Positions 15,233 through 31,483 of a stretch of 64,000 nucleotides of DNA are shown here, one piece after another. Source of the stretch: Prolixibacteraceae bacterium (lineage in GTDB: Bacteria > Bacteroidota > Bacteroidia > Bacteroidales > Prolixibacteraceae). Every line of letters starts with the position of its first letter. Positions within the stretch are counted from its first letter, which is position 1. A program made the position numbers and the translations under genes. The DNA lies in assembly GCA_021740385.1 (NCBI GenBank), contig JAIOZY010000012.1, forward strand, positions 1 to 64,000, given 5' to 3'. Under the pieces are notes generated by a model, which worked only from the letters and a program-made list of their open reading frames with translations, did not search any database and was not told where the DNA came from.

Positions 15233-15670
15233 CTAACGCCTGTTGCCCCTTGGGGCCCCACGCCTTCCAGGAGGTGTACCCTGAGGCCCGCCACCACCAT
15301 CGCGCCGACGGCTACGGAATTCTTCCATCCGTTTCTTTTCAAGCTCAACGTGCTTCGTATATTGTTCTTCGGTTAAAATGGTTTTTAACTCAGCATTCTT
15401 TTCTTCCCTCAGGGTTTCCATTTTTTCACGCATCCCCTGAAAATCGCCTTGTGCCGACTGGAACATTTCGCCCATTTTTTGGCTGTATTTACGATTCAGC
15501 GAATCAACTTTTACTTCCTGTGCTTCATTCAGGCCTAAATCTTCAACCATTTGCTGCGTTTGTCGTTTGACCATTTCTTCAGGATCAAACTGTCCGCCCG
15601 GTGGCTGGGCAATTCCGGCAATTGTAAAAAATAAACCGGCTATTAACGGTATTAAAGTTTTCTTCATCAT
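15233..15670 (-). CDS. Spy-like periplasmic protein with Gly/Arg-rich tail
   Basis: 145 residues. Signal peptide (MMKKTLIPLIAGLFFTIAGIAQPP), then a helical body (VKRQTQQMVEDLGLNEAQEVKVDSL, TILTEEQYTKHVELEKKRMEE) with the LTxxQ-like pattern of Spy/CpxP proteins. The C-terminus is a disordered Arg/Gly/Pro tail (SRRRDGGGG, PPGRRGAPRGNRR). It is the last gene before the terminator of the RND/ABC operon, 92 bp behind the ABC permease, so it could be co-transcribed and serve as an envelope chaperone or sensor for the pump. That link is inference. Confidence 0.7.
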   Translation of the reverse strand: MMKKTLIPLIAGLFFTIAGIAQPPGGQFDPEEMVKRQTQQMVEDLGLNEAQEVKVDSLNRKYSQKMGEMFQSAQGDFQGMREKMETLREEKNAELKTILTEEQYTKHVELEKKRMEEFRSRRRDGGGGPQGTPPGRRGAPRGNRR

Positions 15671-16609: not shown

Positions 16610-19600
16610 TTAAGAGATGTTCGTGTGGGGTGTCCCTTTCTGCAACCACAAATATGCATCCTCTAAGTTTGGCTCAACATTTACAGCACCTTCTCCGGGT
16701 GTTTCTGCCGAAACAATCCTGAGTTTCACATTTTCGCCAACCTTCTGATGATAAGCCACATTGAATTCCCGGGTATACTTTTCAAATTCGTTTTCGGGTA
16801 CCAACAACTGCCAAACATGCCCGCGGGCAGCATCGGTCATGTTACGCGGCGAACCTACGTATTGCACCTGGCCTTTGCGCAACACAGCCAGTTGGTTGCA
16901 CGAGCTGGCAATGTCCTCGATAATATGCGTTGAAAAAATCACGATACGCTCGCGGCTCAATTCAACCAATAGGTTCCTGAAGCGAATGCGCTCACGCGGA
17001 TCGAGGCCGGCTGTTGGCTCGTCAACCACTAAAACACGGGGCAGGTGCAGCAATACCTGGGCAATGCCAATGCGCTGTTTCATGCCGCCCGAGAACGAAC
17101 CGATTTTTTTATCGCGGTTTTCCCACATGTGAACACTTTCAAGCACTTGCCTTACCCGCTGGTCGCGTTCCGATGTAACTTCAATTCTCTTAAGGATGGC
17201 CATGTACTGCAGATAGTCCCAGGCAGTCATGTTTTCGTACATGCCAAATTCCTGCGGCAGGTAGCCAATCAGTCCCTGCAGTTCTTCGCGCTTTAGGTCG
17301 CTGTCGATCTTGTTAAACCAAACCTTCCCGTAACTCTGCTGATTAATACCGCAAATGGCCCTCATCAGGGTCGATTTTCCGGCACCGTTTGGCCCAAGCA
17401 GGCCATACATGCCCTTGCCAATTTCAAGCGAAACACCTTTAAGGGCTTTAAACGGGATACGCTTTTTACCAATAACAGGGATTGCAAGTACAAACCGGTA
17501 AAGCAACCGTTTAAACTCCCTGTTTTTCCCTGTAATCCGGTTAACATTGATCTTCTCACGGTGTATTTTTTTCGATACAGCATCAACAAGCAGCATCAGG
17601 TATACCACAATGGTTAATACAATTGACAAGCCGATGTTTTTGTTTTGCATGTACAACCCGGCAATAATGACCAACGGGAAAAACCAACCCCACAACCATA
17701 AACTCCATTTTGTGATGAATTTTCCCCGTTTCACATTTAGGGTCCATTTATGCAAAACGCCAAGAATATTGTTTCCAAGGAAGAAAAGAACTGCAAAAGC
17801 AATGAGTTTCCACAATTCGGCTTCGAAATAAAAACCACCCATGAAAATTATAAAGCCGGCAAGGGGTATTTTCCATGCAAGTTCACCAAGGTCTTTCAAT
17901 GTTTTGTATGCTTTCGCCTCGCCAAAATTCTCGCGCAGTTTTTTGCCCCCGGCCCATTCACGGACAAAACGCCCGGGGCGGTCGTATATTTTCACCAGGT
18001 TTTGGATTTTTATAACAATGGGCTCACCAGCAGGGATAACCGACTCGCGTGCTTTCCGCAGGCTGTTCATGGCAAACCAAACAATAGCCGGCACTGCTAC
18101 AACAACAAGAATTACGCAAATCATCTGCCAAATGAAACTGTTCACTTCGAAATAAATTAAAACACCCAGCCCGGCGAAAAGGGCATATTGCAACAATTTC
18201 AGCCACAGGGGCAAATGCCTGAACCACGCCAGTGCATTGTGCAAACCTGAATAAAAAGTGGGGATAAATACAAGTGTTAAAACGGTGCTGAAAGCCAGCC
18301 CGCCAATAACAGTGAGGGCAAAGGGAGCACCAATAATCCCTACGTATTCCGATTTACCAAGTGCCAGCGGCAACATGGCAATAATGGTAGTAATTGCAGT
18401 AATAAGAATCGGGCGCAAGCGGGTAAGCCCGGCCATCATTAACGCGCGTTGCGGGCGGTAACCCCGTTTCTGTAAAATATTGCTGTAATCAATAAGTATA
18501 ATCCCGTTGTTGACTACGACACCCAGTAAAATTATGAAACCGGTAAGCGTGTTGGCCGATAACAGGGTATTGCCCGAAAGAATAAGCAAAATAAGGGAAC
18601 CTATTGCTGCCAGCGGAATGGAAAACATAAGCACAAACGGTGTTGCAAACGATTCAAAAACCGATGCCAGGATGGCAAAAATGAGAAAAAAGGCAATGGC
18701 AAACAGGGGGTAGTATGCCGCGTAGTCGTCTTCGTCGTGCACTACCTGAAGGGCAATGCCCGATGGTACAGGCAGCGAGGCAACCAGCATGTCAACGCTG
18801 TTACGGGCATCCTCGAGCAAATCTTTATTATCGGTTATATCGGACGTAAAGGAGTATGTCAGTTCGATCTCCTTCTCCTGGTTCACCCTGTTGATGTTTG
18901 AAATTCCCCAACTGTTGTAAATTTCGGCAATGTCCTGCAATTCATATTCTGCACCTTCATCGTTTTGGATGCTCAGTTGCTGCAAATCGGAGAGTCGCAT
19001 TGGCTCCAACTCCTGAACGGTATCGGTACGTATAATTATCTCGTACTCCTCGTTGTTATGTTTGAAGGTAAAGCCCGATTCAACTTCTTTTCTGAACGAT
19101 GTGAGTTCACTCATCACATTCTGCATGGACACATTGCTTCGCCCTGACAGTTCGGGGTCGAACTTCAGGTGGACTTCGGGCCGGTACGATGCCAGGTTGC
19201 TGCGGGCACGGTCAATTTCGTCCATGTCTTCAAGGTAGTATTCAATATCGTCGGCAATTTTCCGCATCATTTCATAATCCTGCCCTTTAATGAGGATGCG
19301 TTCTTCCTGGCGGCCAATGCCCATCATGCGCTCCATGCGCTGGCTTTGTCGCATACCGCCACCACCGGTACCGTAACCGCCCCCGGCCGACGACTGCTCA
19401 AAATCGATGTCGGCATGGCGATCGTGGTCATCCATGATCTCTTCAATTTCATTTTTGATTTTTTCAAAATCGCGGCCGGCAATTTTTTTGTACGCTTCCT
19501 GCAGGTTTACAGTAACGATGGCCGATTCTTCTTCGATTTTACTGGTAATGCTTTTTTTCTCGGCAATATTGTCAAGGTCTTTCTCGAGGCCTGTTACCAA

Positions 19601-21325
19601 CTCATCGGTGTTTTCGAGGGTCGACCCTGAATCCATGGTTACATAAATGGTTATCCGGTCGTCTTCGGCCTCCTGCAAATTCCGGGTTTGCGTAGCAAGG
19701 CTTACAAAAAGGGCAATGAAAAAAACAACAACACCGCTTAAAACGGTAGCCACCGGTTTGCGCATGGCTGTTTTCAGCAACAATAAATAAACCTGCACCA
19801 GCCGGTTACGTATTGAAATTTTTTCGAAAACCGGGATGGTTTTGCGTTTATTCTGCCGGCCCATAATCAGGTATGTTACCATGGGAATAAACAGAATGGC
19901 AACCAGAAAAGAGATTAACAGGGTTGATATGATGGAAACACCAATTTGCTTGCCAAATAATTTCACAATGATATCATCGGTAAAAAAGAAGGGAACAAAA
20001 ACACAAACCGTGGTAAACGTTGCCGCGAAAATGGAACGCCATACTTCGCGCGTTCCGTTAATTACCGAATCGTAAACACTTTCCCCCTTCCCGGCCAGGC
20101 GGTATATGTTTTCGAGTACAACCACGCTGTTGTCGATAAGCATGCCGATGGCCAGCGCCATCCCCACCAGCGTAATGCTGTTGATGCTGATGTTAAAGGC
20201 ATAAAAGAAGTTAAATGCGGCGTAAACCGAAATGGGGATTGACAGGGCAACAGCGGCCACAAGCCTAATATTCCGGAGGAAAAACCAAAGGATTACCACT
20301 GCCAGCAAACCACCCACCAGCGCCAGATTGATGATCTGGTCGATGTTTTTTTCCATTATTTCGGCCGAGTCGCTTTCAATAAACAGTTCAACACCTATTG
20401 GTTTCAGCTGTTCGTTAAGGGAGGCAATGGTTTCGCGGGTACGGTGCGACAAATCGATCAGGTTGGCTGTATTATCGTTTATCAGCAATACGGTAATGGC
20501 ATCTTTACCGTTTACACGGCTGTACGACGTTTCCTCTTTAAAACCAAAGGTAATGGAGGCGATATCTTTTAGCTTCAGGCCCGACTGCTGATTGACCACC
20601 ACGTTGCCAATGTCCTGAACATCCTGAAATTCGGCTGAAATGTTCACATAATAGCGGCTCGAAGCGTTGTACACTTCGCCTGCAAAAGTGCGGTCGGTAT
20701 ATCCTCTTTGTAATAACTGCCTTATGCGGTTGGGTGTTAGCCTGTAGGCTTCGGCCACGTCGGGCTCAATTTCGATGGTAATGGTCTTTTCCCTGCCGCC
20801 GTATATGTTTACGCTTGAAATACCATCGATATTAAGCAGCGGATCCTGTATCTCTTTATCGGCAATGTTCCTCAAGCGATCTACCCCGCCTTCGCCCAAC
20901 AGTTGTATGCTCATAAACTGGTTCAGCATCGAGCGCATATCGACCTTATCAACCGTTACATAAAACTCATCGGGCAAGGTTGCTGCTGCTTCATTCATTT
21001 TTTCCTGAAGGTGAAGCTGGGCATATTTCAAATTTACCCCCTGGCTGTATGTTATTTCGATGGTTCCGTTACGCCGGGTTGCATTCGACGAAATTTCCTC
21101 AACACCTTCGAGTTGCCCTATGGCCCCTTCGAGCGGGATAATGGCCTGGTTTTCCATGTAACCGGGATCGACTTCGATGGAAGTATTGACCATTACAACC
21201 ATGGTGGGCATTTCGGGTACAGGGTACAGTTCCATGGAAAGCCTGTTATACGATATCACACCAAGCATTACCATGGCCAGGAAAACCATGCTTATAAACG
21301 TCTTTCTGCGGATAATAAAATCCAT
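16610..21325 (-). CDS. RND efflux pump fused to an ABC ATPase
   Basis: 1571 residues in one frame. Residues 1-~1035 are a full RND inner-membrane pump, with MDFIIRRKTFISMVFLAMVMLG at the start, VPEMPTMVVMVNT, TM4 LIDNSVVVLENIYR with its proton-relay Asp, and TLTGFIILLGVVVNNGIILIDYSN in the second half. About two more helices follow. IVIKIQNLVKIYDRPGRF (1103-1120) is the first strand of an ABC ATPase. It is interrupted by ~170 residues with four hydrophobic segments, then the ATPase resumes (PFKALKGVSLEIGKGMYGLL). Walker A GPNGAGKST is at ~1311-1319, signature SGGMKQR at ~1412, Walker B VLVVDEP with Glu1436, and H-loop STH at ~1467. Standard RND pumps have ~1000-1050 residues. All ATPase motifs are intact. 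The gene lies 6 bp after the second RND gene and is followed by an ABC-2 permease. Confidence 0.85.
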   Translation of the reverse strand: MDFIIRRKTFISMVFLAMVMLGVISYNRLSMELYPVPEMPTMVVMVNTSIEVDPGYMENQAIIPLEGAIGQLEGVEEISSNATRRNGTIEITYSQGVNLKYAQLHLQEKMNEAAATLPDEFYVTVDKVDMRSMLNQFMSIQLLGEGGVDRLRNIADKEIQDPLLNIDGISSVNIYGGREKTITIEIEPDVAEAYRLTPNRIRQLLQRGYTDRTFAGEVYNASSRYYVNISAEFQDVQDIGNVVVNQQSGLKLKDIASITFGFKEETSYSRVNGKDAITVLLINDNTANLIDLSHRTRETIASLNEQLKPIGVELFIESDSAEIMEKNIDQIINLALVGGLLAVVILWFFLRNIRLVAAVALSIPISVYAAFNFFYAFNISINSITLVGMALAIGMLIDNSVVVLENIYRLAGKGESVYDSVINGTREVWRSIFAATFTTVCVFVPFFFTDDIIVKLFGKQIGVSIISTLLISFLVAILFIPMVTYLIMGRQNKRKTIPVFEKISIRNRLVQVYLLLLKTAMRKPVATVLSGVVVFFIALFVSLATQTRNLQEAEDDRITIYVTMDSGSTLENTDELVTGLEKDLDNIAEKKSITSKIEEESAIVTVNLQEAYKKIAGRDFEKIKNEIEEIMDDHDRHADIDFEQSSAGGGYGTGGGGMRQSQRMERMMGIGRQEERILIKGQDYEMMRKIADDIEYYLEDMDEIDRARSNLASYRPEVHLKFDPELSGRSNVSMQNVMSELTSFRKEVESGFTFKHNNEEYEIIIRTDTVQELEPMRLSDLQQLSIQNDEGAEYELQDIAEIYNSWGISNINRVNQEKEIELTYSFTSDITDNKDLLEDARNSVDMLVASLPVPSGIALQVVHDEDDYAAYYPLFAIAFFLIFAILASVFESFATPFVLMFSIPLAAIGSLILLILSGNTLLSANTLTGFIILLGVVVNNGIILIDYSNILQKRGYRPQRALMMAGLTRLRPILITAITTIIAMLPLALGKSEYVGIIGAPFALTVIGGLAFSTVLTLVFIPTFYSGLHNALAWFRHLPLWLKLLQYALFAGLGVLIYFEVNSFIWQMICVILVVVAVPAIVWFAMNSLRKARESVIPAGEPIVIKIQNLVKIYDRPGRFVREWAGGKKLRENFGEAKAYKTLKDLGELAWKIPLAGFIIFMGGFYFEAELWKLIAFAVLFFLGNNILGVLHKWTLNVKRGKFITKWSLWLWGWFFPLVIIAGLYMQNKNIGLSIVLTIVVYLMLLVDAVSKKIHREKINVNRITGKNREFKRLLYRFVLAIPVIGKKRIPFKALKGVSLEIGKGMYGLLGPNGAGKSTLMRAICGINQQSYGKVWFNKIDSDLKREELQGLIGYLPQEFGMYENMTAWDYLQYMAILKRIEVTSERDQRVRQVLESVHMWENRDKKIGSFSGGMKQRIGIAQVLLHLPRVLVVDEPTAGLDPRERIRFRNLLVELSRERIVIFSTHIIEDIASSCNQLAVLRKGQVQYVGSPRNMTDAARGHVWQLLVPENEFEKYTREFNVAYHQKVGENVKLRIVSAETPGEGAVNVEPNLEDAYLWLQKGTPHTNIS

Positions 21326-24492: not shown

Positions 24493-25545
24493 TTATCTTT
24501 GCACCTTAACCTTGGTACGGTTCGAAAGCATTTCGTACCCTTCAACAACAAGTTTTTCGCCGGTTTGCAAACCGCTGGTAATTTCAACTTCATCGTCGGT
24601 TTCAATGCCGGTGTTTATCCGTTTTTCAACAGCCGTGTTGCGTTCCACCACGTACACAACCATGCCCCGACGTTTACGCTGAATCACTTCCCTGTCGACA
24701 ACAATGGCACTGTCGCGTTTTTCAATTACAATTTCGGCTTTAACAAACATGCCGGGGCGCATGATCAGTTCGGGGTTATCCACTTCCATCACCCCCTTAA
24801 ACGTGCGCGTGCTTTCGTTAATGGCCGGCGATAATTCTGTTATCACAGCCATCAAAGTATCTTCTTTGAGGTTGTAATTGGTAACAAAAGCTTCCTGCCC
24901 CAGTTTAACGGTTGAAATGAATTTTTCGGGAAATTCAACGCCCAATATCAACTCGCTGTAATCCATCACTTTCAATACCGTTGTACCACTTGCAATTTTC
25001 ACACCGGGCGTAAACCAGGGTAAATCGACAATGACCCCGTCGAAGGGTGAATTAACTTGCAGCTTCTCCATCTGGATAAGGGCATTTTCATAATCGTATT
25101 TCGCATTAATGTAAGCCACTTCCGAATTCTTCAATTCATTGAGGGTTACGCCACCTTTATCGTATAACGATTGTTGCTTTTCGTATTCCCCTTTGGCATT
25201 TTCAAGGTCGAGCTTCTTCGCGTCGATGCGAATACTGATTTCGTATTCCTGGTTTTCGAGAAGAATGATCGTTTCTCCCGCTTTTACTTTATCGCCCATT
25301 TTAAAGGGTTTTCCCGTTCGCGGGTTTACCTGCAAACGGTATTTTCCGTCGGCTTCGGTTGCCATTTCGATACTGCCGGCAGGTGCCACGGTGCCGTTAA
25401 TGGTAAGGCTGTTGAAAATGGGCTTCTTCACTACATCGGCAACCCGAACAGGAACACTTACATCGGCTCCCTGGGATACTTCTTCATTCCGGCAGGCCCA
25501 AAAAAGCGGAATGGCTAATACTGCAATCAGGATGTATTTTTTCAT
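24493..25545 (-). CDS. RND membrane-fusion (periplasmic adaptor) lipoprotein
   Basis: 350 residues. MKKYILIAVLAIPLFWACRN is a lipoprotein signal with the Cys at residue 18. The body shows the adaptor order: lipoyl-like halves (INGTVAPAGSIEM, KMGDKVKAGETIILLEN; VNSPFDGVIVDLPWFTPGVKI), a helical hairpin (KLDLENAKGEYEKQQSLYDKGGVTLNELKNSE), then beta-barrel and membrane-proximal parts (RPGMFVKAEIVIEKRDSAIVV). It bridges the RND pump and the TolC-like channel. The ~60 bp before the next gene hold direct-repeat phrases (CATTAGTTGGCTGTTGGCTAATGAC) typical of intergenic filler. Confidence 0.9.
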   Translation of the reverse strand: MKKYILIAVLAIPLFWACRNEEVSQGADVSVPVRVADVVKKPIFNSLTINGTVAPAGSIEMATEADGKYRLQVNPRTGKPFKMGDKVKAGETIILLENQEYEISIRIDAKKLDLENAKGEYEKQQSLYDKGGVTLNELKNSEVAYINAKYDYENALIQMEKLQVNSPFDGVIVDLPWFTPGVKIASGTTVLKVMDYSELILGVEFPEKFISTVKLGQEAFVTNYNLKEDTLMAVITELSPAINESTRTFKGVMEVDNPELIMRPGMFVKAEIVIEKRDSAIVVDREVIQRKRRGMVVYVVERNTAVEKRINTGIETDDEVEITSGLQTGEKLVVEGYEMLSNRTKVKVQR

Positions 25546-25557
25546 AACACGCGGTAA

Positions 25558-27036
25558 TTAATAATTTTTAAATTCTGGTGAATACTCATTGGGAACAATT
25601 GATTTATCCGATTCGAAATCCCACAGGGTTTGAATTTTCAGGTTCAAAAGCTCCAGTTTATAATTGATGAGAGCCCGTGTGAGCTCGTTTTTTTGTTCCG
25701 ATAACTGGTTTTGATAGAGGCTAAGGTCCATGCTGGTAAGGTCGCCGTTTTCGTATTTTTCGAGGTTCAGTTCGTAAGTAAGCCGCGCGTTTTCAACACT
25801 TTTGCGGGCAATTTCGATTTGAGAAACCAGGTTTTGCAGGTTGCGGTATATCTGCCTTATATTCAATTGTATCGATACCCTTTCCTGTTCAAAGTTCAGT
25901 TCCTGCCTGTCGAGCGTGGCCTCGGCTGCTTTTACGAGCGATTTGCGCTGCCCCCAGTCAAAAATGGGTATTTCGAACGAAAGTTCTACCTGTTCGTTAT
26001 CGGTAGGCGACTGGTAGATGTTGCCAAAATTTTCGTTTTCGCCAAAGAGCCCAACAGCCAGCGAGAGGTTCCCCCTGAACTCATTGGTAGCTTTTGCCCT
26101 TATAAGGTCGAACTGTGCCGTTTCAATATCAATTTCGCGCTGCCTCAGTTCCATGCGGTGCTGCAGTGCATAACCAATGGCATCGTTCAACGCAACGTCG
26201 ATGGTTTTTACATCAACTTCAGCAATAATATCAAGGGGCATATCGAGGTCGGCACCAATAGTTTGTTTGAGCTGGTCCTTTGCATTTTCGAGCGTCACCT
26301 GTGCATTTTGCACCGATGAACGGGCGTTGGCAAGGTTCAGTTCGGCCTGCCACAACTCTTCGCGGGCCGACAAACCGGCTTCGACTTTATTTTTTATAAT
26401 TTCGTGCGATTTTTCCTGGTTTTCGAGTTCTTCACGGCTTATGATCAAAGCTTGCTGCTCCTGGTAAACCTGGTAAAAATACTGGCTTACTTCCTTTTCA
26501 ACATTGAGTTTTTGCATGGCATAACCCAACAGGGTATTTTCAAGGTTTAACTCGAGTTCGCGCAAGCCCATTTTTGTCTGGTTATAGGTAAACAACGGTT
26601 GTTCGAACCTAATTTGAACGTTGTTGCTAAAGGTTTGGTTTGTAATGTTGGTATTATCGTTGTAAGCATTTTGCCAGCCAAACTGGTTGTATAGCGATAA
26701 GGTACCATCGGTTAATGCGATGGGTTGCGAAATACCAAACGTACCCGAGCTTCCCATAATTTCGCGGGTGTACCACGTCGAGCTAAAATCGTCGTATTCA
26801 CGGGTATGGTCGTAAGAAAATGGGCTCACATTCAGGAAGAATTTTGATTTAAGCGAAGCCTTCTGGGCATTGAGCCGCTCGCGGCTGTTCACCAGGTTGT
26901 ACTTCGACTGCCTGATGGAAGGGCTGTTCTCGTATGCAATTTCGAGCACCCGGTTGAGGGTATACAGTTCCTGAGCCTGTATTCCGGTTGCGAGGAAAAG
27001 TACCCCTAAAAGCATGATCTTTTTTCTAATCTTCAT
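25558..27036 (-). CDS. TolC-like outer membrane efflux channel
   Basis: About 492 residues from MKIRKKIMLLGVLFLATGIQAQ (signal peptide); a longer in-frame start at 27063 is less likely. The long coiled-coil halves (LENQEKSHEIIKNKVEAGL, ELNLANARSSVQNAQVTLENAKDQLKQTIG; NARLTYELNLEKYENGDLTSMDLSLYQ) are the two OEP domains of the TolC family. It should form the trimeric outer-membrane duct for the adaptor and pumps downstream, and stands 12 bp ahead of the adaptor gene. Confidence 0.9.
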   Translation of the reverse strand: MKIRKKIMLLGVLFLATGIQAQELYTLNRVLEIAYENSPSIRQSKYNLVNSRERLNAQKASLKSKFFLNVSPFSYDHTREYDDFSSTWYTREIMGSSGTFGISQPIALTDGTLSLYNQFGWQNAYNDNTNITNQTFSNNVQIRFEQPLFTYNQTKMGLRELELNLENTLLGYAMQKLNVEKEVSQYFYQVYQEQQALIISREELENQEKSHEIIKNKVEAGLSAREELWQAELNLANARSSVQNAQVTLENAKDQLKQTIGADLDMPLDIIAEVDVKTIDVALNDAIGYALQHRMELRQREIDIETAQFDLIRAKATNEFRGNLSLAVGLFGENENFGNIYQSPTDNEQVELSFEIPIFDWGQRKSLVKAAEATLDRQELNFEQERVSIQLNIRQIYRNLQNLVSQIEIARKSVENARLTYELNLEKYENGDLTSMDLSLYQNQLSEQKNELTRALINYKLELLNLKIQTLWDFESDKSIVPNEYSPEFKNY

Positions 27037-27144
27037 TATCGTATGTTTAAAACTTTTAATCATTATTTCAAAATAGTCTGTTCTCGTTTTCGGATGTCGG
27101 CTGTTAGCTGTGCTGGCTGTTTGCCATTATCCATTGCTCATCAA

Positions 27145-30100
27145 CTACCGTTGCAACACCCACTTCACAGCATCGGCAATAACGCGGTCGGCGCCACCTT
27201 CATCGGAAAGGACAACCGCTGCTGTATCGGACGAAAAATAAAAGCTTCCGAGAAGGTTCCATCCATCTTCAAAATCTTTTATTTCCAGTTCGATTTTCTC
27301 AACCCCGTCATCGTGGGCAACCGTGTATACAAATTTTCCTTCCGGGTCTCTCCTTCCACGGCGACCGAAACGGCGTTGCTCTTCAAGAAAAACATAAATG
27401 TCGTAATAACCGGCTTCGGCAATGGGCGTTTTCCATGTTGCCGTTTTGCTTCCGTCGCCCGAACGTACAACCATGGCCGACTTTTCAACTTTCCCGAAAT
27501 ATTCGGAATTGGCAACTTTTTTCCATGTTGTGGGCGGCGGTCCAAATTCACCCCTGACAAATTCCTCTTCTTCTTCCGTTTTTCGGCTTTCGATGAATTT
27601 ACGAATCGGGTTTTCAAGCGAAGGGTCGCTTACAGAAAAATTCGGATCGGTATTGTCAACAATCAATTCTCCGGGCAATGCCAATTCAACGGGCTGGTCA
27701 ACAACACGTTCGTATTCTTCGGCTTTCCCGTTTTCATCTTTTTCAGACCGCAGTCCCCATTCCATTGAGCTAACCGGGATATTTTGCGACAGCAGGGTGT
27801 TAAAAATTACCGAACGTGGTGAGTCGAACAACACCATTTGCAGCTCCTTTGTCTGGTTGCCTTCAATGAGAAAAGTCCGTTCTTCAGCTTCTTCTTCCAT
27901 GCCACCGCCAAAAAAACCGCCCCGGCGTCCACCTCCGCCCATTTGAAAGGAGAATTTAACAAGGCCGTCAACGGGGCTGTAATTGGTAACCTTGGTTGTG
28001 ACTACAAAATAGGCCTGCGAATTTTCCACAATTTCCCGTACTTCGAAATTACCCAGCCCAAAAGCCGGCAACTCCGATTCGTTGTACCAATTGGTGAGAA
28101 AATCACCCATTTTAATGTTAAACCTTTGCGACAATTCGCTTTCAAGTTCGCTGTATTTTATCTCGCGATAACTGTTGTTGTACAAGTAATCGAGAAGGAA
28201 CTGATCGAAATTGCTATCATTAATTTGTTTTTCAATCCAGGTTAATAAATACGAACCTTTAACTTGCAAAACGTTATTGATTTTCTGCTGGTCATCCTCT
28301 TCGGCAATAATCTGTTTCAGGCTTTTTTCCCGCAACATCAGGTTTGCCCTTTCGTTGTTGCCCAGGCCCATTGCCCTCGACATAAAAATTTGGCGCGGGT
28401 CGTCCTCGCCTTTCATCAAATAACTTTCGAAGGCATAGTTTAATACGGGGCATTCCTCTGAAGTTATGTAGTTCACATAATAATAATAGTTTGGATAAAT
28501 ACTGTAAGGATTTGATGATGTTGATGTTCCAGGAGGCCCAAAAGGCATATCGGCACTTTCTTCGGCCAGCATTCCATTCAGGAAATTTGTAAAAACCCGG
28601 GCCTGAATCTCTTTTTCGGTTAGTCCCTCTTTGTTCCGGTCGCTGTCGCGTTTTATCATACGGTAATTCGACTTAAAATCGGCCTGCCTGACGTTGAACC
28701 CCCACTCGGGGTAAAAAACCATTTGGGGCTGGCTTTGTGCCAGGGCCGATGTCCACGAATGCGGACGGGAAGCAAACTGCACGGGTGCTTCAACCATTGT
28801 AAACGTTCGGTACGGATAATACATGCCAATGGGACGTTCGTAATCATCGAGAAACTCGGTAATAAGTACTTTTACGGTATCGCCCAGTTCCGATAAATGC
28901 GATGAAAAATAATCGTGCCCCTTTTGAAAGACAATGCCAACTTCAATTCCATCAATGTCGATTTTGCGCTCTTCATAATCCGAAACAGCCAACGACAACT
29001 GTGGCAGCGGATCCCTGATGTCGAAACGGTACACCAAACTGTCGGTAGTTTGCCGCTGCCCCTGTGAAACAGGAAGCATTCCGGGCTTTACTTTTACCGA
29101 AAGGTCGAAGTTTGTAAACTGCTGCCTGAAAATGGCCGGTTTTGATGGATCGTAAGCCACACCCGGAATGGGATACCAAAGATTTTCTTTCGTCAGCAGT
29201 ACATAATCGCCCCTGTAAAATCCGTATTGTCTGTCAATGCGCATGGTCATTACCTGGTCATGTCCATAAACGTCTTCGTTTTCATTATCGAGGTAAGAAA
29301 CATCAAAATCGGGAATTCCGGAATAATGCATTTCGAGGTTTATCTCTTTGCCGGGCATCAACCCTTTCTGCAGAAAAACATTCACTAAAAGGGCATTCTT
29401 TTCAAAGTGCAAATCATGACCATCACCGGTTATTTTTTCAACATTAAATGCCGGGTTTATTGAAAAAACAAGGGTGTCGAGCGCCTGGTTAAAAGGGTTG
29501 GTTAATGTCATTTTTGAAACCGCCTTCAACTGTTCCCCAATATCGACATTGATTGTCGCCTGCTTCATCAGGGGAACTTTTTTTGAGAAATTTTCCGAAG
29601 AAAGGGTTGAATATACCTCCCTGTTTTCAACAACCGCTTTGTTTTGCCTTATCATATTAGCAAAGCCAACTGCTGAAACAACAATTAGCAAAACCGTTGA
29701 AAGAAAAACAACGGCTTTATTCGCTGCTTTATTGGGAATGCGTTTTAGAAAAGCGGTTGAAAACAGAATAAGGCCGGTGCCCAGGAGCAAATAAGCCATC
29801 CGGTGCCACAAAATGTATTGTACATTGCTGAACCCGACAATATCGGAAAAAGGTACGGGCATGGCAAAAAGCATGTAGTCGAAAACATAGCCAGGCTTGC
29901 CGGCCAAATAAAACAGAACCAGCGCGATGTAACCCAGTAATATAATAAAGGTGATGGCCTGGTTTCGCAAAAGGGTCATTAAGGCAAACGTTAAGCCAAT
30001 AATAAAAATTAGTGACGGAATGCTAACCATGAAAAAGTAAGCCACAAAAGGCATAATTCGAAACGGCACCTGTCCGGAAATAAAAATAAAAACCGAGGTA

Positions 30101-30483
30101 AGTACCATTAAAAGCAGGTTAAGGGTTACAAACACCCCTAACAAGCCCATGGTTTTCCCGGTAATGTATTCGAAATTGGACATTGGCCTGATGAAAAGAA
30201 CCTCTGCCGTATCGAGTTTTTTGTCGCGTTTAATAAAATCGCTTGCTAAAAATACGGCTATAACGGACTGTATAATGTTTAAAAGAAAGAAATTTGAATA
30301 AACAATTGCCGAAGGCAGGCTCCTGAACATCCAGGTAAAGGGGTTCCGGTTAAAAAAAGTAGAACCGCAAAAAAGGCCAATGAATAAAATAGCGAGTATC
30401 GCAAAAATGCGAAAGAACCAACTACGGAACAAAATACGGCGTTCGTAGCGCGCTATGGTATTGATATTTCTTAACGATATCAT
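27145..30483 (-). CDS. Large ABC-2 permease with degenerate M1-like region and golvesin-like C-terminus
   Basis: 1112 residues. The first ~290 residues are an ABC-2 permease with about seven helices (WFFRIFAILAILFIGLF, IIQSVIAVFLASDF, AFALMTLLRNQAITFIILLGYIALVLFYLAG and others). The next ~550 residues form a periplasmic region laid out like the M1-aminopeptidase half of ABC permease/M1 fusions, with MVEAPVQFASRPHSW in the substrate-site position. I find no HExxH zinc motif anywhere, so it is probably not a peptidase. A GGGGRRGGFFGGGMEEE linker follows. Residues ~980-1112 resemble a golvesin/Xly carbohydrate-binding-like domain (ATWKTPIAEAGYYDIYVF, WNLLGSFYF, VIADAVKWVL). Its ATPase is encoded directly upstream. 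Confidence 0.8.
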   Translation of the reverse strand: MISLRNINTIARYERRILFRSWFFRIFAILAILFIGLFCGSTFFNRNPFTWMFRSLPSAIVYSNFFLLNIIQSVIAVFLASDFIKRDKKLDTAEVLFIRPMSNFEYITGKTMGLLGVFVTLNLLLMVLTSVFIFISGQVPFRIMPFVAYFFMVSIPSLIFIIGLTFALMTLLRNQAITFIILLGYIALVLFYLAGKPGYVFDYMLFAMPVPFSDIVGFSNVQYILWHRMAYLLLGTGLILFSTAFLKRIPNKAANKAVVFLSTVLLIVVSAVGFANMIRQNKAVVENREVYSTLSSENFSKKVPLMKQATINVDIGEQLKAVSKMTLTNPFNQALDTLVFSINPAFNVEKITGDGHDLHFEKNALLVNVFLQKGLMPGKEINLEMHYSGIPDFDVSYLDNENEDVYGHDQVMTMRIDRQYGFYRGDYVLLTKENLWYPIPGVAYDPSKPAIFRQQFTNFDLSVKVKPGMLPVSQGQRQTTDSLVYRFDIRDPLPQLSLAVSDYEERKIDIDGIEVGIVFQKGHDYFSSHLSELGDTVKVLITEFLDDYERPIGMYYPYRTFTMVEAPVQFASRPHSWTSALAQSQPQMVFYPEWGFNVRQADFKSNYRMIKRDSDRNKEGLTEKEIQARVFTNFLNGMLAEESADMPFGPPGTSTSSNPYSIYPNYYYYVNYITSEECPVLNYAFESYLMKGEDDPRQIFMSRAMGLGNNERANLMLREKSLKQIIAEEDDQQKINNVLQVKGSYLLTWIEKQINDSNFDQFLLDYLYNNSYREIKYSELESELSQRFNIKMGDFLTNWYNESELPAFGLGNFEVREIVENSQAYFVVTTKVTNYSPVDGLVKFSFQMGGGGRRGGFFGGGMEEEAEERTFLIEGNQTKELQMVLFDSPRSVIFNTLLSQNIPVSSMEWGLRSEKDENGKAEEYERVVDQPVELALPGELIVDNTDPNFSVSDPSLENPIRKFIESRKTEEEEEFVRGEFGPPPTTWKKVANSEYFGKVEKSAMVVRSGDGSKTATWKTPIAEAGYYDIYVFLEEQRRFGRRGRRDPEGKFVYTVAHDDGVEKIELEIKDFEDGWNLLGSFYFSSDTAAVVLSDEGGADRVIADAVKWVLQR

Positions 30484-30523: not shown

Positions 30524-31483
30524 TCATAAAAGGCTTGCTTCGGCGTAGTGCTCCATATAATACACATAAGCATGCTCGAGGTTGGGCTCAATCGGTACAG
30601 CATCAAAACCCTTTGGCGATTCATTCACAACCTCAAGTTCCCATCCCCCAACCGACGGTATCGAAGAAATGACATTAAATTTCACATTCACTTCGTCGAA
30701 CTGTTCATGGCTTGCTTTAATTTTCCAAACATTTCCTTTTGCCTGGTTTATTAGTGCTTCGGGTGAACCGTTGTACATGAGCCTACCACTGCGTAACAGG
30801 GCCATGTGATGGCACGTGCTCGAAATGTCACCCACAATGTGTGTCGACAATATGATAATCACATCGCGTGCACTGATTTTTGTTAACAGGTTGCGAAAGC
30901 GGATCCGCTCATCGGGGTCGAGGCCGGTGGTGGGTTCGTCTACAATGATTATTTTCGGGTCGCCAATTAATGCCTGTGCAATACCAAGCCTGCGCTTCAT
31001 CCCCCCCGAAAGGTTATTGGCAAAACGTTCGCGTGCTTCGTATAACCCCACCTCTTCGAGCATTTCTTCCACGGCATCGCGGCGTTTTTGTTTTCCCTTA
31101 ACACCGGCCAAACGTGCCGAATAATCGAGAAATTCCCAGGAACGCAGTTTGGGAAAAGCGCTGAAATCCTGCGGCAAATAGCCCGTCATGGTCCTGATGG
31201 CTTTCCTGTTTTTGCGTAAGTCTTCGCCATTAACCAATACTTTTCCGGTGGTTGGGCTCATTAACGAAACCAAAATTCGCATCAGGGTCGATTTACCCGC
31301 GCCATTGGCACCCAGCAGGCCAAACATCCCGTTACTGATTTCGAGGCTGACCGACTTGAGGGCTTTATGACCGTTCGGATAAATTTTGGTAAGGTCCTGA
31401 ATTGAAATATCCACTTTTTTCTGATTTAATAAACTTGTTCTGTTAGATACACCCTTAGCTAAAAGGTTTAATCCGTTTTTCAA
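30524..31483 (-). CDS. ABC transporter ATP-binding protein
   Basis: 319 residues. Walker A GANGAGKST, Q-loop YLPQDF, signature LSGGMKRR, Walker B IIIVDEPTTGLD and the H-loop STH are all present. It begins VDISIQDLTKIYPNGHKALKSVSLEISNG after a ~25-residue leader. It is a close paralogue of the ATPase domain fused to the RND pump at 16610: both share RIRFRNLL after the D-loop and an EPNLE-AY C-terminal motif. The comparison shows that the fused copy carries an insertion between KIY and KAL. This is the first gene of the leftward operon and pairs with the permease 40 bp downstream. Confidence 0.9.
   Translation of the reverse strand: MKNGLNLLAKGVSNRTSLLNQKKVDISIQDLTKIYPNGHKALKSVSLEISNGMFGLLGANGAGKSTLMRILVSLMSPTTGKVLVNGEDLRKNRKAIRTMTGYLPQDFSAFPKLRSWEFLDYSARLAGVKGKQKRRDAVEEMLEEVGLYEARERFANNLSGGMKRRLGIAQALIGDPKIIIVDEPTTGLDPDERIRFRNLLTKISARDVIIILSTHIVGDISSTCHHMALLRSGRLMYNGSPEALINQAKGNVWKIKASHEQFDEVNVKFNVISSIPSVGGWELEVVNESPKGFDAVPIEPNLEHAYVYYMEHYAEASLL

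Follow-up and report, generated by a model that had tools for sequence, protein, structure and literature searches.

Efflux pumps of the RND type and ABC transporters are regarded as distinct classes, each with its own energy source. In MacAB-TolC, the inner-membrane part is ATP-driven and works together with a membrane fusion protein (MFP) and TolC. For CFTR, a regulatory insertion of about 30 soluble residues is known in NBD1, in the loop between strands 1 and 2 of the ATPase, just after the aromatic residue of the A-loop. Among the HAE-1 RND pumps, like AcrB, MexB and MdtBC, heterotrimers were also identified, namely MdtB2C1, which contains a single copy of one of its two subunits (PMC7015380). 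For AcrB, the exchanges D407N, D408N, K940A and R971A were each shown to result in an inactive pump (PMC4359379).

The DNA analysed here, referred to as the window, is a stretch of 64,000 nucleotides from a Prolixibacteraceae bacterium. It contains a gene coding for an RND permease and an ABC ATPase in one polypeptide, so that two known transporter classes are joined in one chain through a membrane module without relatives in Pfam or the PDB. With HAE-1 pumps, the locus shares a full-length ACR_tran domain and adjacent genes for an MFP and an outer membrane efflux protein (OEP), and with MdtBC the presence of two RND paralogues per cluster. It differs from them by the C-terminal ABC ATPase, which is attached via two plus four membrane helices, and by residues of the proton relay discussed below. 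The ATPase motifs, the similarity of the ATPases and the ABC-2 permease partners are shared with ABC-2 exporters (GldA-like ATPases, NosFY, ABCA); however, in one of the two ATPases, four membrane helices interrupt the domain at the A-loop, and this ATPase is covalently tied to an RND permease. MacB has no RND domain, whereas here the ABC and RND parts are present in one chain. Compared to the soluble insertion of CFTR, the one in the fusion protein is about 177 residues long and contains four membrane helices; the presumably identical site suggests that additions at this position are tolerated without the loss of ATP binding.

In a search limited to the open-access literature, no description of an RND-ABC fusion was found, in agreement with the first-pass annotation of the window, to which no characterised counterpart was known. 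The protein is, as we assume, surely already contained in sequence databases, probably labelled as RND.

The RND-ABC Fusion Gene

The fusion gene consists of a single uninterrupted frame with an ATG start and no internal stops (Table 1). The first-pass annotation had proposed an RND pump and an ABC ATPase in one frame, and had named a stop or frameshift between the two parts as evidence to the contrary; the frame in the window is intact, and both domains were identified by Pfam. ACR_tran (PF00873) covers residues 2-1026 with 545.6 bits against a cut-off of 28, matching positions 3-1018 of the 1021 positions of the profile and thus a full-length RND permease. ABC_tran (PF00005) covers residues 1295-1439 with 103.1 bits against a cut-off of 25. 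The RND permease is followed by two membrane helices, strand 1 of the ABC domain, an insert and the remaining ABC ATPase. The solved structures nearest to the RND domain are MdtB and MexB, and those nearest to the ATPase are ABCA-type transporters, NosF and LptB.

The claim that the ATPase motifs are intact proved correct: Walker A, the Q-loop, the signature, Walker B with the catalytic Glu and the H-loop are all kept in 73 aligned sequences and in a distant clade. In the same alignment (n = 73), the most conserved stretches of the fusion protein include the ATPase motifs.

Table 1: Features of the fusion gene and its cluster in the window. Residue numbers refer to the fusion protein.
Feature	Position	Strand	Basis and remarks
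Perm2, ABC-2 type permease, 252 aa	15763..16521	-	ABC2_membrane_3 in 27/54 homologues; adjoins the fusion gene
RND2-ABC fusion protein, 1571 aa	16610..21325	-	Intact frame; Pfam; near-full-length homologues
RND permease domain, residues 1-1028	18242..21325	-	ACR_tran; D398 and R969 kept; N399, N939
Two extra membrane helices, about residues 1040-1093	18047..18208	-	AlphaFold2 models; charge pattern
ABC strand 1 with A-loop Y1114, residues 1105-1114	17984..18013	-	Model; conservation
Insert in the strand 1 - strand 2 loop, residues 1115-1291	17453..17983	-	Models; alignment; charges
Remaining ABC ATPase and C-terminal tail, residues 1292-1571	16613..17452	-	Pfam; alignment; model; structural relatives
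Walker A GPNGAGKST, residues 1311-1319	17369..17395	-	Alignment; distant clade
Signature SFSGGMKQR through Walker B LVVDEPTAGLD, residues 1410-1442	17000..17098	-	Alignment; distant clade
H-loop His1467	16925..16927	-	Alignment; distant clade
RND1, second RND permease, 1032 aa	21332..24430	-	Pfam; 61/61 loci
Membrane fusion protein MFP (HlyD_D23)	24493..25545	-	Pfam; 56/56 loci
TolC-like outer membrane efflux protein (OEP)	25558..27063	-	Pfam; 54/54 loci
PermM1: ABC-2 membrane domain, M1-peptidase-like domain lacking HEXXH, Golvesin C-terminal domain	27145..30483	-	54/54 loci
ABC1, free ABC ATPase and paralogue of the fused ATPase	30524..31483	-	Pfam; tree; 45/50 loci

The Membrane Module and the Split ATPase

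Strand 1 of the ATPase had been reported in the first-pass annotation to be separated from the rest by about 170 residues with four hydrophobic segments. In the window, the sequence NLVKIYDR corresponds to residues 1109-1116, and the sequence PFKALKGVSLEI to residues 1291-1302. Between Y1114 and F1292, 177 residues are inserted. When residues 1020-1571 were modelled with AlphaFold2 (mean pLDDT 85.9), four membrane helices were likewise predicted in this insert, at 1143-1166, 1170-1195, 1201-1228 and 1231-1256. Strand 1 was placed at 1105-1114, apart from the rest of the ATPase, which follows on a strand at 1292-1302. In the models, the four helices are flanked by amphipathic helices at 1119-1133 and 1269-1281. 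Two further helices, which had been missed in the first-pass annotation, precede strand 1 (1040-1060 and 1064-1093), so that the extra membrane module consists of two plus four helices.

In a second model, of residues 1030-1300 without the ATPase (mean pLDDT 89.5), strand 1 nearly vanishes. This is consistent with strand 1 folding into the sheet of the ATPase across the insert. The N-terminal beta subdomain is not contiguous, with strands 1 and 2 being 165-191 residues apart in 73/73 aligned sequences. The mean number of Lys and Arg residues is 7.5, 4.5 and 10.5 in the predicted cytoplasmic loops, compared to 0.3-0.9 in the predicted periplasmic loops. Since these charges obey the positive-inside rule, both pieces of the ATPase are predicted to be cytoplasmic.

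For the module of two plus four helices, neither a Pfam family nor a relative in the PDB by sequence was identified, and despite the confident model no fold match was obtained at E <= 0.001. The possibility that the insert represents a degenerate ABC-2 permease or a repeat of the RND type was considered and rejected, as profile-profile comparisons to Perm2, PermM1 and RND1 gave no match. An unfused ATPase carrying the insert was not found in ten genomes, in which all full-length profile matches lie within the fusion gene.

Conservation and Distribution

A contig scan of bacterial and archaeal genomes resulted in 129 loci, of which 80 were kept, and 73 near-full-length sequences, including the one of the window, were aligned. 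The position of the insert is identical in 73/73 sequences, between the invariant Y1114 and the invariant F1292. The A-loop Y1114 is also kept in the distant clade, which has the same joint and insert at about 33-35% identity. Chance is excluded by the conservation of the insert position, the length of 165-191 residues, Y1114 and the catalytic motifs in the 73 sequences.

Within the family of the window, the region was identified in 34/37 genomes, mostly in frames of 1550-1600 codons and also in single-contig genomes, while it is rare in an even draw across the whole phylum of the window. In the phyla of the loci from KSB1, Gemmatimonadetes and Krumholzibacteriia, 28/59, 31/64 and 13/78 genomes were positive, respectively. 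Chlorobiota and Calditrichaeota are also named in the record titles of loci. The fusion gene is present in the named isolates Marinifilum, Labilibaculum, Ancylomarina and Carboxylicivirga, so that it can be studied in culture.

The first-pass annotation had proposed a search for the same fusion and insertion point in other genomes, and many homologues were found to share the joint. This bears on the idea that two adjacent genes have been joined by an accident of assembly or annotation. The genome of the window is a draft of 113 contigs, and isolated broken copies exist (L143, L146, L124), as such an accident would allow. However, the joint is identical in 73 aligned sequences, it is present in the single-contig genomes G026, G029, G556 and G557, and the remaining short frames inspected stop at contig ends. 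An assembly error is thereby ruled out for practical purposes, its probability being negligible.

In L124 (G517 C183), the apparent break is located in the loop between helices 2 and 3 of the insert. The ATPase half starts with an ATG of its own in a different frame, which may represent a natural split, decay or an assembly error.

The Seven-Gene Cluster

The fusion gene is part of a cluster which had not been mentioned in the first-pass annotation and which codes for a further ABC-2 permease and a further RND permease. The order along transcription is ABC1, PermM1, OEP, MFP, RND1, RND2-ABC and Perm2. In the window, neighbouring genes of the cluster are separated by about 6-90 bases. Neighbours were counted only at loci with enough flank; Perm2 is present in 67/67 of these, and the counts for the other partners are given in Table 1. 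Order and strand of the neighbours are kept across loci, and the distant clade has the same partners. In L114 and L122 of this clade, the cluster is organised in two divergent blocks, with the parts still being together.

The genes for MFP and OEP, as expected for a tripartite RND efflux system, are contained in the cluster, apart from three loci in the phylum of the Gemmatimonadetes locus (L149, L150, L152). Here, no OEP/TolC gene is present between PermM1 and MFP, and TolC must come from elsewhere. As for ABC-2 exporters, permease genes are located beside the ATPase gene, namely those for Perm2 and PermM1; a profile comparison of these two gave a weak result. The HEXXH motif was found in 0/49 copies of PermM1, which suggests that the M1-like domain is probably not an active peptidase. 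The Golvesin C-terminal domain is present in 37/37.

For the divergent homologue L098, no other genes of the cluster were identified in the short flanks (2.9 kb upstream and about 0.5 kb downstream). Downstream of Perm2, no gene is conserved across loci, and no functional hints were obtained there. In the window, a small DUF4890 protein is encoded directly downstream of Perm2 (15233-15670, minus strand), and elsewhere only in L033 and L101. In Marinifilum and relatives (L046, L050, L056, L093, L095, L106), genes for a small putative BlaI-like regulator and for putative M56-peptidase-like proteins are located downstream of Perm2. Scans for promoters and terminators in the sequence performed no better than on shuffles.

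Ancestry of the Two ATPases

The free ATPase at 30524, which the first-pass annotation had used for comparison, is a real gene, designated ABC1 here. Both ABC1 and the fused ATPase contain the canonical motifs, and in the tree no other sampled ATPase is closer to either of them. The fused copies were grouped with a support of 94/91 and the ABC1 copies with 84/85, in a tree with long outgroup branches, from which the grouping can be trusted and not the root. Each of the two groups spans both clades, which implies that the duplication is old.

Energy Source of the RND Domain

In the fused RND domain, D398 corresponds to D407 of AcrB and R969 to R971 of AcrB, the exact register of the latter being based on AcrB numbering. 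At the positions of AcrB D408 and K940, N399 and N939 are present. Two of the four residues of the AcrB-type relay (D407, D408, K940, R971) are replaced, a relay which does not define all RNDs. In RND1, TM4 likewise contains D-N, and the position of K940 is mostly occupied by Asn. In an RND sample from the order of the window, this pattern is limited to RND1 and the fused RND domain. In related phyla, the Asn pair was also identified in stand-alone RNDs (e.g., L188, L194, L200, L206 and L209), so that these residues neither prove nor exclude proton drive. For the same reason, the absence of relay residues was rejected as proof of ATP drive. Of the earlier description of a proton-driven pump joined to an ATP engine, the joining of RND and ABC was retained; proton drive is one possibility, on which the Asn residues at the D408 and K940 positions do not decide.

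A Proposed Export Machine

The reading preferred here, to which we assign a probability of roughly 0.5, is that of a two-stage export, in which an ABC-2 exporter containing a pair of paralogous ATPases is linked to a tripartite RND pump via the fused subunit. The fusion protein would be the bridge of this hybrid export machine, which is apparently undescribed. Its ATPase would pair with ABC1 and power an ABC-2 exporter composed of Perm2 and PermM1, while its RND domain would form a heterotrimer with RND1, working with MFP and TolC. The two plus four helices, four of them beside the A-loop, may anchor the ATPase at the membrane near the RND trimer and couple both. By the ATP-driven movement of the ABC half, a hydrophobic or amphiphilic substrate would be brought to the periplasmic side, and the RND tube would then carry it across the outer membrane. 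We infer a physical complex with such a hand-over and such a substrate, and a stoichiometry in which, similar to MdtB2C1, two copies of RND1 are perhaps combined with one fusion protein. With a single-copy subunit of this kind, one fused ATPase would be present per pump, left to pair with one ABC1.

The covalent tie, which is retained in all clades, would also agree with ATP driving the RND cycle directly. Here, the dimer of the fused ATPase and ABC1 would push the RND trimer via the two plus four helices, replacing or supplementing the proton gradient. The residues D408 and K940, at which single substitutions inactivate AcrB (PMC4359379), are missing in RND1 and the fused RND domain, in line with this possibility. 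However, the stand-alone RNDs of related phyla have the Asn pair without a fused ATPase, the residues at the positions of D407 and R971 are retained, and the two ABC-2 permeases of the cluster would need a different role. Direct drive by ATP is unlikely in our view; if true, an RND pump driven by ATP, alone or in addition to the proton gradient, would represent a primary transporter class so far undescribed. Rather unlikely, too, is a mechanical or regulatory role of the ABC half in the manner of MacB or FtsEX, in which the large periplasmic domain of PermM1 would be moved at the expense of ATP, so that the substrate is released into or gated through the RND-MFP channel, with no substrate transport by the ABC half itself. 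The large and presumably periplasmic part of PermM1, with its pseudo-peptidase and Golvesin C-terminal domains, would suit this role, but Perm2 and the membrane part of PermM1 match ABC-2 exporter families and not the MacB/FtsX type.

An ABC ATPase is a covalent part of an RND pump in several phyla, within one conserved gene cluster, and a membrane domain sits inside this ATPase at the adenine-binding loop. This makes it testable whether a single trans-envelope machine can draw on ATP as well as on the proton gradient, and whether an RND fold can be driven by ATP.

Other RND genes were also identified in unusually long frames, in L165 (G000 C113), L159 and L154, coding for 1459, 1472 and 1526 amino acids, respectively.
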